Program-made: the position numbers and the translations under genes
Part shown: positions 972-32,993 of the stretch, piece by piece
Position numbering within the stretch: position 1 is the first letter of the stretch
How the letters are laid out: every line of letters begins with the position of its first letter
The notes under the pieces: model-generated
Databases searched by the model: none
Told to the model about the DNA's origin: nothing
Seen by the model: only the letters and a program-made list of their open reading frames with translations
From: Rhodospirillales bacterium
GTDB taxonomy: Bacteria; Pseudomonadota; Alphaproteobacteria; Rhodospirillales; 2-12-FULL-67-15
Reading direction: 5' to 3'
NCBI GenBank assembly: GCA_009693905.1
Contig: SHWG01000007.1
Coordinates: 1-34,702, forward strand
Length of the DNA stretch: 34,702 bases

Positions 972-2738
972 CTACTCCTGCAGGGCGTTGAAGTCGTCGA
1001 GCAGCATGGCGATCCGGACCGCATCGACCTGGTCCATGATCAGGAGCGCCCGGTGGCGGGCGGCGAGCGCGTCCATGGCGCGGATGCGCTGCTTGACGCG
1101 CGGCAGATTGGCCGCGGCCATGGACAGCTCGCGGAAGCCGAGCCCCACCAGCAGGGCGGCGAAGCGCGGATCGCCCGCGATCTCGCCGCAGATGCTGACC
1201 GGAATGCCGGCGCGCACCGCCGCCTCGGACGCGAACTGCATCAGGCGCAGCACCGCGGGATGGAGCGGATCGAACAAATGCGCGACGGTCTCGTTGGCCC
1301 GGTCGGCGGCGAGCGTGTACATGGTGAGATCGTTGGAGCCGACGGCGAAGAAGTCGCACACCTTGGCGAGCGCGTCGGCGGCGAGCGCGGCGCCGGGAAC
1401 CTCGATCATCGCCCCCACCGGCGGGAGCTTCTCGGGCACGCCCCCGCGCCGGCGGCGGATTCCTTGCGCCACGCGCTCCAGGATCTCGCGCGCCTTGCGC
1501 ACCTCGCTCGGCGTCGTCACCATCGGCAGGAGAATCCGCACCGGCCCGTGCGCCGACGCGCGCAAGATGGCGCGGAACTGGGTTTCCAGCGTCTCGCGCT
1601 TTTTCAGCGACAATCGGATGCCGCGCAAGCCGAGCGCCGACGGGCCGCCGCCGGCGAGCCCGTCGGTGAGCACGGCGGCGAGCTTGTCGGCGCCGATATC
1701 GAGGGTGCGCACCGTGACCGGGCGGCCGTCCATGGCGGCGACGACGCGGGTGATCTCGCGCGCCTGCTCGTCTTCGCCGGGCAGATCGTCGCGGTTCATG
1801 AACATGAATTCGGTGCGCAGCAGCCCGACCCCGGCGGCGCCGGCGGCGCGGACCGCGTCCATTTCGAGCGGCAGCTCGACGTTCGCCTCGAGCCGGATTT
1901 CGGTGCCGTCGCGGGTCGCCGCCGGCAGGCCGCGCAGGCGGGCAAGGCGGTGGACGTCGCGCAAGCGTTCCTCGCGCCGGCGCTCGTAGGCCGCGAGCGT
2001 CGCCGGAGCGGGATCGAGGATCACGCGGCCCGAGTCCCCGTCCACGATGGTGACGGTTCCGCTCGTGGCGTGATCGAGCAGGCCGGCGACGCCGAGCACG
2101 GCGGGCAGGCCGAGCGCGCGCGCCATGATCGCGGTATGGCCTTCCGCGCCGCCGACCGTGGCGGCGCAGCCCATGACGCGCGCCGGGTCCATCTGCGCCG
2201 CGCCCGCCGGCGTGATCATGTCGGCGACGATGATCGCGCCCCTGGGCACGGCCGAAAACGGCTTGACCGGCGCGCGGGTGAGGTTCCGGACCAGGCGGTT
2301 GCCGATGCCGCGAATGTCCTCGAGCCGGGCGGCGAGATAAGGGTCTTTCATCTGGGCAAACGCGCGGCCGATGTCGACGATCTCGGCTTCGACCGCGGCC
2401 TCGGCGTTGATCCGGCCCTGCTCGATCCGCGCGCGCGCGCCGCGCAGCAGCCTTGATTCTCCCAGCATCTGTCCGTACGCGTCGAGGAGATGCGCTAGTT
2501 CCTCGCCGGCCGCGCCGCGCATGCCGCGCGCCTTGATCCGGAGCCGGCCGATCTGGCGCTTGGCGCGCTCGACCGCCGCGTCGAGGCGGGCGATCTCGGG
2601 TTCGACCGCGCGGGCGGCGATGGTGTAGGTCGGGACCTCGGCGGTTCCGCTCGCGCGCACGTAAGCCGGGCCGATGGCAATCCCCGGCGACACGCCGAGG
2701 CCCTTCAAGCTCCGTTCCGGGCGGCGTTCGGGGGTCAT
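972..2738 (-). CDS. ptsI: Phosphoenolpyruvate-protein phosphotransferase (PTS enzyme I)
   Basis: GVSPGIAIGPAYV N-terminus, GGAEGHTAIMARALGLPAV phospho-His motif, LLRTEFMFMNR and FFAVGSNDLTMYTLAADR motifs. Confidence 0.93.
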   Translation of the reverse strand: MTPERRPERSLKGLGVSPGIAIGPAYVRASGTAEVPTYTIAARAVEPEIARLDAAVERAKRQIGRLRIKARGMRGAAGEELAHLLDAYGQMLGESRLLRGARARIEQGRINAEAAVEAEIVDIGRAFAQMKDPYLAARLEDIRGIGNRLVRNLTRAPVKPFSAVPRGAIIVADMITPAGAAQMDPARVMGCAATVGGAEGHTAIMARALGLPAVLGVAGLLDHATSGTVTIVDGDSGRVILDPAPATLAAYERRREERLRDVHRLARLRGLPAATRDGTEIRLEANVELPLEMDAVRAAGAAGVGLLRTEFMFMNRDDLPGEDEQAREITRVVAAMDGRPVTVRTLDIGADKLAAVLTDGLAGGGPSALGLRGIRLSLKKRETLETQFRAILRASAHGPVRILLPMVTTPSEVRKAREILERVAQGIRRRRGGVPEKLPPVGAMIEVPGAALAADALAKVCDFFAVGSNDLTMYTLAADRANETVAHLFDPLHPAVLRLMQFASEAAVRAGIPVSICGEIAGDPRFAALLVGLGFRELSMAAANLPRVKQRIRAMDALAARHRALLIMDQVDAVRIAMLLDDFNALQE

Positions 2739-2742
2739 GAAT

Positions 2743-3096
2743 TCAATCCCTCTCGTCGAATCCGGATTCGATCAGCGCCTGGATCGCATCCAGCGCCGCC
2801 CTGGCCGCCGGCCCGCGGGCCGCGATTTCGATGTCCATGCCCGGACCCGCCGCCAGCATCATCAGGCCCATGATCGAATGGCCCGAGACGGTCTGGCCGG
2901 CGCGCGAAACCTGGATGTAGGCGTCGAACTGGCCGACGAGCTTGACGAACTTGGCCGCGGCGCGGGCGTGCAATCCACGCTGGTTGCGGATGACCGCGTG
3001 GCGCCTGAGGACGGCATTATTCACGGTGCGCGGGGATTCTTTCGTTGGCCCATCTGCCGGTGGGACCGCGCGGGTCGGCGAACGCCCCTTGTTCAT
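2743..3096 (-). CDS. HPr family phosphocarrier protein with about 28-aa N-terminal extension
   Basis: RGLHARAAAKFV (His site) and SGHSIMGLMMLAAGPG (regulatory Ser site); extension MNKGRSPTRAVPPADGPTKESPRTVNN precedes the canonical domain. Confidence 0.9.
   Translation of the reverse strand: MNKGRSPTRAVPPADGPTKESPRTVNNAVLRRHAVIRNQRGLHARAAAKFVKLVGQFDAYIQVSRAGQTVSGHSIMGLMMLAAGPGMDIEIAARGPAARAALDAIQALIESGFDERD
3024..3067 (-). repeat. Repeat element family 2 within the HPr N-terminal extension
   Basis: 44 nt aligns without gaps to 18080-18123 (33/44 identical by eye); 26-nt core 3035-3060 aligns to 32619-32644 in dnaX (21/26, all differences transitions). Confidence 0.7.
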
Positions 3097-3097
3097 G

Positions 3098-3505
3098 TCA
3101 CGCGCCGTTTTGGGCCAGGAGCTTGGAGGCGATGGTGATGTACTTGCGCCCGGCCTCCTGTGCGCTCACCGCCGCTTGGGGCAGAGTCTCCGTCTTGCGC
3201 GCGCTCGCCAACTTGATGAGCATCGGCAGATTCACGCCGGCGATGACCTCGACGTTGCCCTTGTCCATGATCGAGATGGCGAGATTGGACGGGGTGCCGC
3301 CGAACATGTCGGTGAGCACCGCGACGCCTTTGCCGGAATCGGTGCGGGCGACGGCGTCGAGAATCTCGGCGCGCTTCGCCTCCATGTCGTCGTCGGGACC
3401 GATGCACACGGTCGCGGTTTGCGGCTGCGCGCCGACGATGTGCTCGAGCGCGCTCTGCAGTTCGATCGCCAGGCGGCCGTGCGTGACCAGCACCATTCCG
3501 ATCAT
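3098..3505 (-). CDS. PTS EIIA component, mannose/fructose family
   Basis: MIGMVLVTHGRLAIELQSALEHIVG...VAVLTDMFGGTPSNLAISIM, EIIA-Man pattern. Confidence 0.9.
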   Translation of the reverse strand: MIGMVLVTHGRLAIELQSALEHIVGAQPQTATVCIGPDDDMEAKRAEILDAVARTDSGKGVAVLTDMFGGTPSNLAISIMDKGNVEVIAGVNLPMLIKLASARKTETLPQAAVSAQEAGRKYITIASKLLAQNGA

Positions 3506-4488
3506 TGCCGTCGTCCCTTCGGTCGTTTAACAGTCTTGCGCGCGCGGAGCGCACGACTCCGGTTTCGGCCGGGGCGCCGATTGTGCGCCGCCACCGCCCC
3601 CGTTTCCAGATCCCTATGGCGAATCTCGACGGGAATCTCGCGCTTCTTCAGCCATTGGGCGAGCCGTTCGGCGACGAAAACGGAGCGGTGCCGCCCCCCG
3701 GTACAGCCGACCGCGAGGGTGAGGTAGCTCTTGCCTTCGGCGGCATAGCGCCCCAACAGCGGTCCGACCAACTGGGTGAGATGGCGGAAAAAACCCGCGA
3801 AGTGCCGATCGCGGCCGATATAGGCGGCCACCGCCCGGTCGCGGCCATCCCTGGGCTTCAGTTCGGGGCGGTAATGCGGATTGCGCAGGAACCGGACGTC
3901 GAACACCATATCCGCTTCGCCCGGCAGACCATGGCGATACGCGAACGAGGTCACGAACACCACCATGCCGCCCTCGGCGCCGGCGGCGAAACGGCCCGAG
4001 AGCACGTGCTTGAGTTCGCCAGGCCCGATCTCGCTCGTGTCGATGACCAGATCGGCGCGTTCGCGCGCCGCGCGCAAGAGCCGGCGCTCGCGGCGGATGC
4101 CCTCGCCGAGCGTGCCTGAGCCGGCGAGCGGATGGCGATGCCGGGTTTCGGCGTAGCGGCGCTGCAACACCGCGTCGGTCGCGTCCATGAAGACGAGGTG
4201 CGCTTTTTTTCCGGCATGCTTGGCAAGCGCGGCGAGCAGGCCGCGCACATTGAAATCGCGGGTGCGGACGTCGATGCCGACCGCGAGCGGGCGCTGGGGC
4301 CGGCCCCGGCCCGCGGGCGCGATTAGTTTTTCGAGCAATCCCAATGGCGCGTTGTCCACGGTTTCGAAGCCCATGTCCTCGAACGCCTTCAAGGCGGAGC
4401 TTTTTCCCGCCCCGGAGATCCCGGTGACGAGGACGACCCGGCGGGGAGTCGTGCGGGCGCGCGGGCTTAACCCCGCGCGCTTAATCAT
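3502..4488 (-). CDS. rapZ: RNase adapter protein / nucleotide-binding protein RapZ (YvcJ)
   Basis: VVLVTGISGAGKSSALKAFEDMGFETVDNAP...AVGCTGGRHRSVFVAERLAQWL; alternative GTG start at 4512 would overlap the hprK stop. Confidence 0.93.
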   Translation of the reverse strand: MIKRAGLSPRARTTPRRVVLVTGISGAGKSSALKAFEDMGFETVDNAPLGLLEKLIAPAGRGRPQRPLAVGIDVRTRDFNVRGLLAALAKHAGKKAHLVFMDATDAVLQRRYAETRHRHPLAGSGTLGEGIRRERRLLRAARERADLVIDTSEIGPGELKHVLSGRFAAGAEGGMVVFVTSFAYRHGLPGEADMVFDVRFLRNPHYRPELKPRDGRDRAVAAYIGRDRHFAGFFRHLTQLVGPLLGRYAAEGKSYLTLAVGCTGGRHRSVFVAERLAQWLKKREIPVEIRHRDLETGAVAAHNRRPGRNRSRALRARKTVKRPKGRRQ

Positions 4489-4500
4489 GGTGCGCCCCTT
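4455..4500. repeat. GC-rich palindromic repeat family 1 copy at the rapZ start
   Basis: gggcgcgcgggcttaaccccgcgcgcttaatcatggtgcgcccctt; about 39/46 identical with one gap to 18006-18050 at gltB. Confidence 0.75.
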
Positions 4501-4508
4501 CGCGGCGG

Positions 4509-4961
4509 TCACGGTTTTCTCTTTCTTTTCCGGTGCCGCGTTATTCGCGCGAGCGCCATGCCGATCTTGATCGGTGCCGTCGCCTCGAACGGCGCGAGGC
4601 CGACGCGCGCCAGCGACACGCCGGCCATCACGCAGCGGCCGGGCGCGGGCATGCGTTCCACCCGCTCCGGTCTCGCCAAATCCACCACTAGAACGAGTTC
4701 GACGGCGGGGCGCCTCGGAACGGCGACGACGCCGATGCCGCGGACTTCGATCAACCCGGCCAGAGCCGGGGGCGCGGCCGCGAACAAGCGGTTGCGGCGA
4801 ACCGAAAGCACGACCCGGTCGTCGGCGACGAGAAGGGCGCCCCGGTCGATGAGCCGGAGCGCGAGATCGGATTTTCCCGCCCCCGGAGGGCCGCGCAACA
4901 AAACGCCCCGGCCGTTCACGGCGACCACGGTTCCATGGATCTGGCGGAGCGGGGCGGGCAT
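4509..4961 (-). CDS. hprK: HPr kinase/phosphorylase, short alphaproteobacterial form
   Basis: GRGVLLRGPPGAGKSDLALRLIDRGALLVADDRV Walker A; IEVRGIGVV motif; gene neighbourhood. Confidence 0.9.
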   Translation of the reverse strand: MPAPLRQIHGTVVAVNGRGVLLRGPPGAGKSDLALRLIDRGALLVADDRVVLSVRRNRLFAAAPPALAGLIEVRGIGVVAVPRRPAVELVLVVDLARPERVERMPAPGRCVMAGVSLARVGLAPFEATAPIKIGMALARITRHRKRKRKP

Positions 4962-13403: not shown

Positions 13404-18038
<4,635 letters not shown>

Positions 18039-18095
18039 GGCGCGCCCCTTTCCGGGCGCGACGCGCATCCCGCGCGCGCGGTCCCGCCGGTAGGC

Positions 18096-18142
18096 GGGCG
18101 CGGAACAGAATCCCCGCGCGCCGCCAGCATTGCGCCCCTTTC
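18096..18142. repeat. Second palindromic repeat copy, exactly 90 nt from the first, in the gltB leader
   Basis: Ungapped alignment with 18006-18052 (33/47), with perfect blocks gggcgcg, gaatccccgcgcgc, gcgcccctttc. Confidence 0.65.
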
Positions 18143-28085: not shown

Positions 28086-28982
28086 ATGAGAAAAACCAAA
28101 GAGCGCGGAATTATCGCCTTCCAGGGCGCGGCCGGAGCGTACTCCGACCTCGCCTGCCGCGAAGCCTATCCGTCGATGCGAACTTTGCCGTGCCGCACCT
28201 TCGAGGACACCTTCGCCGCGCTGGCCAAGGGCCGGGCAGGACTCGCCATGATCCCGATCGAGAATTCGGTCGCCGGGCGCGTCGCCGACATTCACCATTT
28301 GCTGCCCGATTCGGGCCTGTTCATCGTCGCCGAGCATTTCCAGCGGGTCAACCACCACCTGCTCGGACTCAAGACCGCGCGGTTGGCCGACATCGCCCGC
28401 GTCCACAGCCACGTCCATGCGCTCAGCCAATGCCGCAAACTGATCCGCAAGCTGCGTCTGCGTCCGGTGATCCATGAGGACACCGCCGGCGCGGCGGCAT
28501 TGGTGGCGAAGCTCGGCGATCCGACCCAAGGAGCGATCGCGTCCAGGCTCGCGGCCCGCATCCATGGCCTCAAATCGCTGAAAGCGAACATCGAAGACGC
28601 GGATCACAACACCACGCGCTTCATCGTCATGGCTAAGCGGCCGCGGGTTCCCGGCACGAACGCCGGCCCGGTCGTCACCAGTTTCGTCTTCCGCGTGCGC
28701 AACGTGCCCGCCGCGCTCTTGAAGGCGCTCGGCGGCTTCGCCACCAACGGCGTCAACATGACCAAGCTCGAAAGTTACGTCAGCGCCGATTTCATCGCCG
28801 CCCAGTTCTACGCCGATATCGAGGGACATCCCGAAAGCCGCAACGCCGGGCGCGCTTTCGATGAACTCGCCTTCTACACCCACGAGGTGAAGGTGCTCGG
28901 CGTCTACCCGGCGCACCCCTATCGCCTCAAGATGGAAAAGCGCGCGTCGCGCGGGCTTACCCCCGCGCGCACCAAAAAATAA
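28086..28982 (+). CDS. pheA: Prephenate dehydratase (with ACT domain)
   Basis: IIAFQGAAGAYSDLACREAYP, IPIENSVAGRVADIHHLLP, NTTRFIVMAK, KLESYVSADFIAAQFYADIEGH. Confidence 0.94.
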   Translation: MRKTKERGIIAFQGAAGAYSDLACREAYPSMRTLPCRTFEDTFAALAKGRAGLAMIPIENSVAGRVADIHHLLPDSGLFIVAEHFQRVNHHLLGLKTARLADIARVHSHVHALSQCRKLIRKLRLRPVIHEDTAGAAALVAKLGDPTQGAIASRLAARIHGLKSLKANIEDADHNTTRFIVMAKRPRVPGTNAGPVVTSFVFRVRNVPAALLKALGGFATNGVNMTKLESYVSADFIAAQFYADIEGHPESRNAGRAFDELAFYTHEVKVLGVYPAHPYRLKMEKRASRGLTPARTKK

Positions 28983-29004
28983 GCGCGGGCTTAACCCCAC
29001 GCGC
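28948..29004. repeat. Two palindromic repeat family 1 copies flanking the pheA stop codon, between convergent pheA and nudC
   Basis: cgcgcgggcttacccccgcgcgc (28948-28970) and gcgcgggcttaaccccacgcgc (28983-29004); core shared with 4459-4480. Confidence 0.75.
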
Positions 29005-31361: not shown

Positions 31362-32993
31362 ATGACCGGACCAGGCGAACGCAATTTCCTTTCCTCCGGC
31401 GACGCGGCCGGCGGGGCCTATCGGGTCCTCGCCCGCAAGTACCGCCCCGCGACCTTCGCCGACTTGATCGGCCAGGAGGCGATGGTGCGCACGCTCACCA
31501 ACGCGCTGCGCTCGGGCCGGCTCGCGCACGCCTTCGTGTTGACCGGCGTGCGCGGCGTGGGCAAGACGACGACCGCGCGGATCATCGCCCGCGCGCTCAA
31601 CTGCGTCGGCCCCGACGGCCAGGGCGGGCCGACCGGGTCGCCGTGCGGCGCGTGCGAGCATTGCCGGGCGATCGCCGAGGACCGCCATGTCGACGTGCTC
31701 GAAATGGACGCCGCCAGCCGGACCGGCGTCGACGAGATGCGCGAGCTGATCGAGGGCGTGCGCTACCGCCCGACTTCGGCGCGCTACAAAATCTACATCG
31801 TCGACGAAGTCCACATGCTGTCGAAGAACGCCTTCAACGCGCTCTTGAAAACGCTCGAAGAGCCGCCGCCGCACGTGAAGTTCGTCTTCGCCACCACCGA
31901 AATCCGCAAGGTTCCGGTCACGGTGCTGTCGCGCTGCCAACGCTTCGACCTCCGCCGCATCGACGAGGACGTCTTGAAGACGCACTTCCGCCGCATCGCC
32001 GAGCGCGAAGGTGCCCGCATCGCCGAGGCCGCGCTCGGCCTGATCGCGCGCGCCGCCGACGGCAGCGTGCGCGACGGCCTCAGTTTGCTCGACCAGGCCA
32101 TCTCCCATGTCCACGACAAGGATTCGGCCGGCGATGACGGCGGCGCGGCGCAGCGCGAAATAACCGAGGCCGAGGTCCGCGCCATGCTCGGGCTCGCCGA
32201 CCGCACGCTGACCTTCGATCTGGTCGAGGCCGCGCTCAAGGGCGACGGTAAGCGCGCGCTCGACGTGCTTTCCGCCCAGCACGACGCCGGCGCGGAGGCC
32301 GCCCAGACGATCGAGGATACGCTTGGCCTCGTCCATTGGCTGACGCGGATCAAGCTCGTGCCCGAAGCCGCCGACGACCTGGCGGTGCCGGAGTTGGAGC
32401 GCAAGCGCGGGCGGGCGATGGCCGACGCGCTCGCGATCCCCGCCCTCGCGCGCGCCTGGCAAATCCTGCTCAAGGGTCTCGCCGAAACCCGCGCCGCCCC
32501 GAACGGCGCCGAAGCCGCGGCAATGGTCCTGGTGCGGCTCGCCTACGCGAGCGCGCTGCCGACTCCGGAAGAGGCGATCCGCGCGCTCATCCCGCCGGCA
32601 GGCGGGCCAATGGTCTCGCCGGTAGGTGGGCCAATGAAGGAACCGCCGGCGGCCCCCGCCCAGCCGATGCCCGCCCCGCAATCCCGCCCGCCGAGTTCTT
32701 CGCCCCGATCCTCGGCCGCGTTGGCGCGGCCCGCGCCCCAGACCCAGTCCGAGCCCGAAACCGAGCCGCAAGCCGCCGCCGGCATGCGCACGTTGACCGA
32801 GGAACAGGCGGCGGCGCGCGACGCGGCGCGCGCCGAGATCGCCCTGCATCCCTTCGTCCGCGCGGTCCATGCCGTCTTTCCCGAGGCCCGCCTCGAAGCG
32901 GTGCGTTCCCCGTTACGCGAAGGCATGCCCAACGGCATGACGCCGCCGGCGGCCGATCGACCGGGCACGGACGACGAACCGGACCGCGAATGA
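31362..32993 (+). CDS. dnaX: DNA polymerase III subunit gamma/tau
   Basis: YRVLARKYRPATFADLIGQEAMVRTLTNAL, GVRGVGKTTTARIIARALNC, CGACEHCRAIAEDRHVDVLEMDAASRTGVDEMRELIE. Confidence 0.96.
   Translation: MTGPGERNFLSSGDAAGGAYRVLARKYRPATFADLIGQEAMVRTLTNALRSGRLAHAFVLTGVRGVGKTTTARIIARALNCVGPDGQGGPTGSPCGACEHCRAIAEDRHVDVLEMDAASRTGVDEMRELIEGVRYRPTSARYKIYIVDEVHMLSKNAFNALLKTLEEPPPHVKFVFATTEIRKVPVTVLSRCQRFDLRRIDEDVLKTHFRRIAEREGARIAEAALGLIARAADGSVRDGLSLLDQAISHVHDKDSAGDDGGAAQREITEAEVRAMLGLADRTLTFDLVEAALKGDGKRALDVLSAQHDAGAEAAQTIEDTLGLVHWLTRIKLVPEAADDLAVPELERKRGRAMADALAIPALARAWQILLKGLAETRAAPNGAEAAAMVLVRLAYASALPTPEEAIRALIPPAGGPMVSPVGGPMKEPPAAPAQPMPAPQSRPPSSSPRSSAALARPAPQTQSEPETEPQAAAGMRTLTEEQAAARDAARAEIALHPFVRAVHAVFPEARLEAVRSPLREGMPNGMTPPAADRPGTDDEPDRE
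32591..32644 (+). repeat. Tandem 24-nt repeats in dnaX linker, family 2
   Basis: cgccggcaggcgggccaatg (32593-32612) / cgccggtaggtgggccaatg (32617-32636); second copy extends into homology with HPr 3035-3060. Confidence 0.7.

Follow-up and report, generated by a model that had tools for sequence, protein, structure and literature searches.

Our analysis suggests that the N-terminal tail of HPr in this Rhodospirillales bacterium very probably contains a genus-specific, non-autonomous, REP-like palindromic element that was inserted in frame. Elements of this kind would spread through DNA, with flexible, frame-keeping insertions surviving, and HPr would still be translated from its ancestral ATG, carrying a disordered addition of 16 residues with little or no effect on its contacts. 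The window, by which we mean the whole stretch of 34,702 nucleotides analysed, corresponds to a single contig in a draft genome of 1.91 Mb and 132 contigs that is 82% complete. It was compared with two congeners, G001 and G002, all three genomes being draft assemblies. The features around HPr are as follows.

2743-3096, minus strand: ptsH (HPr), extension included; its ATG (3096-3094) is common to the congeners; TIGR01003 match (1.7e-24) from residue 31
3028-3072, minus strand: repeat copy in HPr, with arms GCGCGG and CCGCGC around the core GGTC-CCACC-GGCA-GATGG-GCCA (E 8.8e-12; 7.2e-10 by a sister-trained model)
3025-3072, minus strand: about 48 nt (16 codons) missing from both congeners in the codon alignment with G001 (L026) and G002 (L025), the ends being ambiguous by a few nt
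3022-3024, minus strand: in-frame GTG beside the insertion, with no counterpart codon in the congeners
3098-3505, minus strand: gene upstream of HPr, which we take to encode EIIA (mannose type); its stop abuts the HPr ATG
972-2738, minus strand: ptsI (EI), downstream of HPr

The codon alignment of HPr reads MNKGRSPTR-AVPPADGPTKESPRTVNN-AVLRR in the source species, MNKERAPKR-PD-AVLSR in G001 and MNKERSPARQGDALRR in G002. The first codons are conserved (MNKER[AS]P.R in both congeners), several of the differences being synonymous, and neither congener gene has an in-frame ATG, GTG or TTG between the shared ATG and the core of the protein. Since the congeners share this ATG and lack any later start before the core, the ATG at 3096-3094 is, on the sequence comparison, the ancestral start. 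The repeat most likely reflects a genuine insertion of 48 nt, in frame and following codon 9, and not a mis-called start. The first-pass annotation had described an in-frame repeat that extends HPr, and the congeners, with the same ATG and first codons and without the 48 nt, bear this out; they are too diverged for the insertion borders and target duplications to be other than ambiguous. The annotation had also allowed for initiation downstream of the repeat. Translation would then start at the GTG at 3024, and the segment would be 5' UTR only, the repeat being an ordinary REP in the EIIA-HPr intergenic region. With the ATG common to both congeners, we consider this improbable. It is true that the in-frame GTG immediately follows the repeat, that no clear Shine-Dalgarno sequence precedes the ATG, and that many N-terminal REPs may be extragenic with mis-called starts (PMC3733652). 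However, the GTG likewise lacks a clear Shine-Dalgarno sequence. The ATG lies directly next to the stop codon of the EIIA gene or overlaps it, an arrangement that fits coupled translation. Both congener genes open with this ATG, retain the MNK.R.P.R codons despite several synonymous substitutions, and offer no later in-frame start ahead of the core.

The repeat match itself could be recomputed exactly. The HPr repeat at 3024-3067 (minus strand) shares 33 of 44 positions, ungapped, with the gltB-side sequence at 18080-18123, and its best 26-nt match to dnaX (32619-32644) has 21 identities. The repeat is real, its unit (3028-3072) being slightly shifted from the span first proposed. Chance similarity, or convergence of low-complexity GC-rich sequence, might be invoked given the high GC content (68%), but it is extremely unlikely: the best 44-nt match had at most 28 identities in 200 of 200 simulated windows (first-order Markov, with the window's own dinucleotide transitions), none of which reached the observed match, and the family is genus-restricted with E-values down to 2e-13. 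A covariance model (R2) trained solely on copies from the two sister genomes, the source genome never being in the training set, recovers the HPr copy (3072-3028) at E 7.2e-10 together with the three copies below. Chance was rejected, being contradicted by both the simulated windows and this independent sister-trained model.

18075-18119, plus strand: the window's best-preserved copy; it runs antisense to gltB, close to the start of that gene and probably 5' of it (2.8e-11)
32591-32610, plus strand: first partial core copy in dnaX, encoding PPAGGPM (0.0066)
32612-32647, plus strand: second, tandem core copy in dnaX, encoding SPVGGPMKEP (6.6e-5)

The dnaX match thus stands, with two tandem partial copies in the gene; dnaX of G001 (L111) has a single related copy. 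The gltB match also stands, and its placement in a gltB leader is uncertain: downstream of the copy there is an ATG with GGAAAGGGG before it, so that the copy is more likely 5' of the gltB start. The sole match of an Rfam search was the small SRP RNA gene (RF00169, 31230-31328, plus strand), upstream of dnaX.

Aligned copies give the consensus CGCGCGGTCCCGCCGGTAGGCGGGCCAACGAnAGAATCCCCGCGC. The core is a hairpin with a [GC]GTC tag, a stem of 5-6 bp, a 4-nt loop (GGTA, GATA, GGAA) and a tail that is mostly GCCA, GCGA or GCAA. Among 71 copies, the tag is GGTC in 45 and CGTC in 20, and the tail GCCA in 34 and GCGA in 17; the final C of the tag is able to form a pair with the G that follows the stem. 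Stem types (CCGCC/GGCGG, GCGCC/GGCGC, ACGCC/GGCGT) differ by compensated changes, and GTAG occurs only across the loop, not terminally. Core copies occur in either orientation, within genes as well as in intergenic regions, and most forward coding copies are in the frame VPPxGGP, the codon-model classification of all copies being a guide only, as calls from short flanks were uncertain. In many copies, those of HPr and gltB included, the core is enclosed by the two halves of a second palindrome, GCGCGG ... GAATCCCCGCGC. This host palindrome, chiefly GCGCGGGC..AHCCCCGCGC, is itself genus-specific. The HPr extension had been assigned to a second repeat family; it is indeed a separate family, yet nested inside the window's other one, which explains why the ends of the repeat resemble that family. 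Other copies have alternative arms around the core (e.g. GCGGCGG ... CCGCCGC), and the outer arms of a copy match each other better than they match the arms of other copies (p = 0.00075 for non-consensus arms, in a permutation that ignores copy relatedness). The host palindrome also occurs bare in the window.

4459-4478, plus strand: bare host palindrome GCGCGGGCTTAACCCCGCGC, apparently in frame at the RapZ N-terminus
18010-18029, plus strand: bare host palindrome GCGCGGGCGAATCCCCGCGC, beside the core-bearing copy
28949-28968, plus strand: bare host palindrome where a prephenate-dehydratase-like gene ends

At 4440-4510 (minus strand), the RapZ N-terminus MIKRAGLSPRARTTPRR is apparently encoded by the first of these, which is likely to be a further insertion that keeps the frame within this PTS gene cluster. 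Two neighbouring host palindromes are seen at 28948-29004 (plus strand), at and just past the end of the prephenate-dehydratase-like gene. Elsewhere, nine loci carry a two-hairpin relative of about 66 nt (84% mean column identity), which reads as RPPAKPASFDGAPSGATRAS and is in frame at several genes. At L104 (contig C194 of G001, from position 4600 onward), a 27-nt form of the core is repeated in tandem, which suggests local amplification as in dnaX, and a CCGGTCTTTTGTTTTGGCGG-like module recurs after the core in four places, including hisH.

The annotation had left room for the repeat having no other copies. Blastn found about ten further good ones in its own draft genome, and copies also exist in the congeners. 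Across the three congeners, the covariance model yielded at least 113 matches at E<=1 (48, 40 and 25 per genome), the weak tail of which is not to be trusted, and at least 39 pass 1e-5 under stricter filters. With these filters and E<=1e-5, there was none in 196 other genomes of the order and, with model R1, none in 384 other genomes drawn from the class. Exact copies of the host palindrome number 48, 39 and 47 in the three congeners and zero in 37 other genomes of the order, and a reversed control pattern gave zero matches. The exact core pattern was absent from 2.9 million viral contigs. Among the sampled genomes, the repeat family is therefore genus-specific, being present in the three congeners and in no other member of the order or class.

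In the AlphaFold model, HPr residues 1-29 have a pLDDT of about 60 and no secondary structure, whereas the core exceeds 90 and matches solved HPr structures at about 1 A. The added 16 residues are modelled, with low confidence, as a tail without structure that is attached to an otherwise normal HPr core. HPr homologs had been said normally to start close to RGLHARAA, which is partly true: 11 to about 40 residues precede GLHARA within the order, with 40 in the source HPr, at the long end, and 24 in both congeners. This range marks the tail as a tolerant place, and a functional effect of the insertion is unlikely because HPr tails vary across the order. The conflict with EI, HprK and EIIA contacts implied by the annotation finds no support in a variable tail modelled as a disordered appendage on an intact fold. 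A search of NCBIfam with the extension gave no match even at E 10. One could imagine that the extension is a selected new functional peptide, for docking or localisation, as a single frame (VPPxGGP) predominates among coding copies. Stop codons already limit the usable frames, however, and this peptide also turns up in unrelated proteins; given also that the HPr peptide occurs in one of the three species only and is modelled as disordered, we regard such a role as very unlikely. The repeat might instead be kept as a functional RNA hairpin, an attenuator or mRNA stabiliser in the EIIA-HPr-EI operon. Intact copies elsewhere do fold stably (-31.6 and -32.3 kcal/mol), and REPs are able to act as RNA elements (PMC3733652). 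In the HPr copy, however, the hairpin is partly eroded, one change in its stem lacks a compensating partner, and its folding does not surpass that of shuffled sequences (z -0.11). The insertion is also missing from the operons of both congeners, and we consider this role very unlikely. An RNA-regulator role for the HPr copy was rejected on the folding statistics.

The repeat family is found in well over a dozen other genes across the source genome and its two nearest relatives. Empty sites in congeners were established for the six genes covered by this comparison (HPr, polA, plsC, hisH, moeA and an rlmJ-like gene), and all insertion lengths are multiples of three. The insertion in polA measures 30 nt, with an empty site in a congener (L203; polA was not found in the draft genome G001), and that in plsC 27 nt. 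The insertions in hisH (75 nt) and moeA (111-114 nt) include neighbouring repeat modules, and a 22-residue block in HisH interrupts the continuous chain of solved HisH structures. A 24-nt insertion affects a methyltransferase, presumably rlmJ-like (it has no NCBIfam match), with orthologues in G002 and two order relatives. A second extra block in polA (L086, G000 C83), GVTPRGVHLHD, is also missing in the congener and appears to belong to a different hairpin family. Additional hosts, known here from family models only, are dnaG, cobB, ruvC (C-terminus), an amidase, a molybdenum hydroxylase and DUF3750, as well as an aldolase-SDR fusion and an AphA-like regulator, both common to two species; these last two insertions are older, since they are shared. 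A longer relative of the element occurs at the UbiE N-terminus and in a PAS kinase.

We propose that the element spreads through DNA with the help of some mobilising enzyme. Purifying selection would remove frame-breaking or misplaced insertions, and frame-keeping insertions in loops, linkers or termini would survive because the encoded Pro/Gly-rich peptide VPPxGGPxxES is probably flexible. The HPr product would begin at the ancestral ATG with its disordered 16-residue addition, which would have little or no effect on contacts with EI, HprK or EIIA. No Y1 transposase (PF01797; RAYT/IS200) was detected in the three genomes, two of them incomplete, with positive controls. It is tempting to go further and to suggest that the core inserts preferentially in other palindromes, perhaps via single-stranded hairpin DNA, and that, moved by a non-Y1 enzyme, it has come to serve in this genus as a general source of flexible peptide loops for conserved proteins, but we hold this broader idea to be doubtful.

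The family has its closest parallels among CGTC REPs, which are common in alphaproteobacteria and include RPE-4 and RPE-6 (PMC3733652; Di Nocera, De Gregorio and Rocco 2013). These are reported without a dedicated transposase, accept TGTC and CCTC as tag variants, and in several species occur within genes and can be nested in palindromes; intragenic REPs are known in other genera too, many N-terminal ones perhaps reflecting mis-called starts (PMC3733652). The present family resembles them in its short stem, 4-nt loop (4-5 nt in CGTC REPs) and CCA-type tail, in its alphaproteobacterial host, and in its intragenic units, DNA polymerase I being among known REP hosts, and its nesting in palindromes. 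The tag at one end may be of the same type, although its last C can be paired, and the absence of Y1 transposases from the three genomes may be a further parallel. The family differs in its stem of 5-6 bp instead of 8-9 bp, whose first two positions are not A-T pairs, in GGTC as the main tag, in its restriction to one genus and in its compound structure with a second abundant palindrome. With the stem too short and the A-T pairs missing, it is best read as a short-stem, GC-rich variant of CGTC-type REPs, set apart from CGTC-1 to -4 by their descriptions. GTAG REPs with RAYT are likewise short dispersed hairpins, sometimes in genes or nested in palindromes, but here there is no terminal GTAG tag and no Y1 transposase in the three, partly incomplete, genomes. 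MITEs are similarly short and non-autonomous with complementary ends, whereas no target duplication or parent transposon could be identified here, borders relative to the congeners being ambiguous.

No sequence match to the Rickettsia RPEs was detected, NCBIfam being searched with the extension and the sampled genomes of the class with R1. Judged by their descriptions, RPEs are also palindromic repeats in frame in unrelated conserved genes, with several families per genome and insertions absent from orthologues, as here in HPr, polA, plsC, hisH, moeA and the rlmJ-like gene. The host here belongs to another order and is GC-rich, and single elements measure 24-48 nt, whereas the longest RPE family reaches about 150 bp. 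Together with the shared start codon, the empty sites in sister species show that six conserved genes, HPr, DNA polymerase I and HisH among them, have received insertions that keep the frame in a GC-rich alphaproteobacterium that does not belong to the Rickettsiales. These genes offer a clean system for studying the movement of such repeats and the reasons for which proteins tolerate them. Protein-coding repeats of the REP and RPE kind are a known phenomenon, of which HPr is a clear new case; as far as the literature searched shows, the family, its nesting and the proof from sister species are new.
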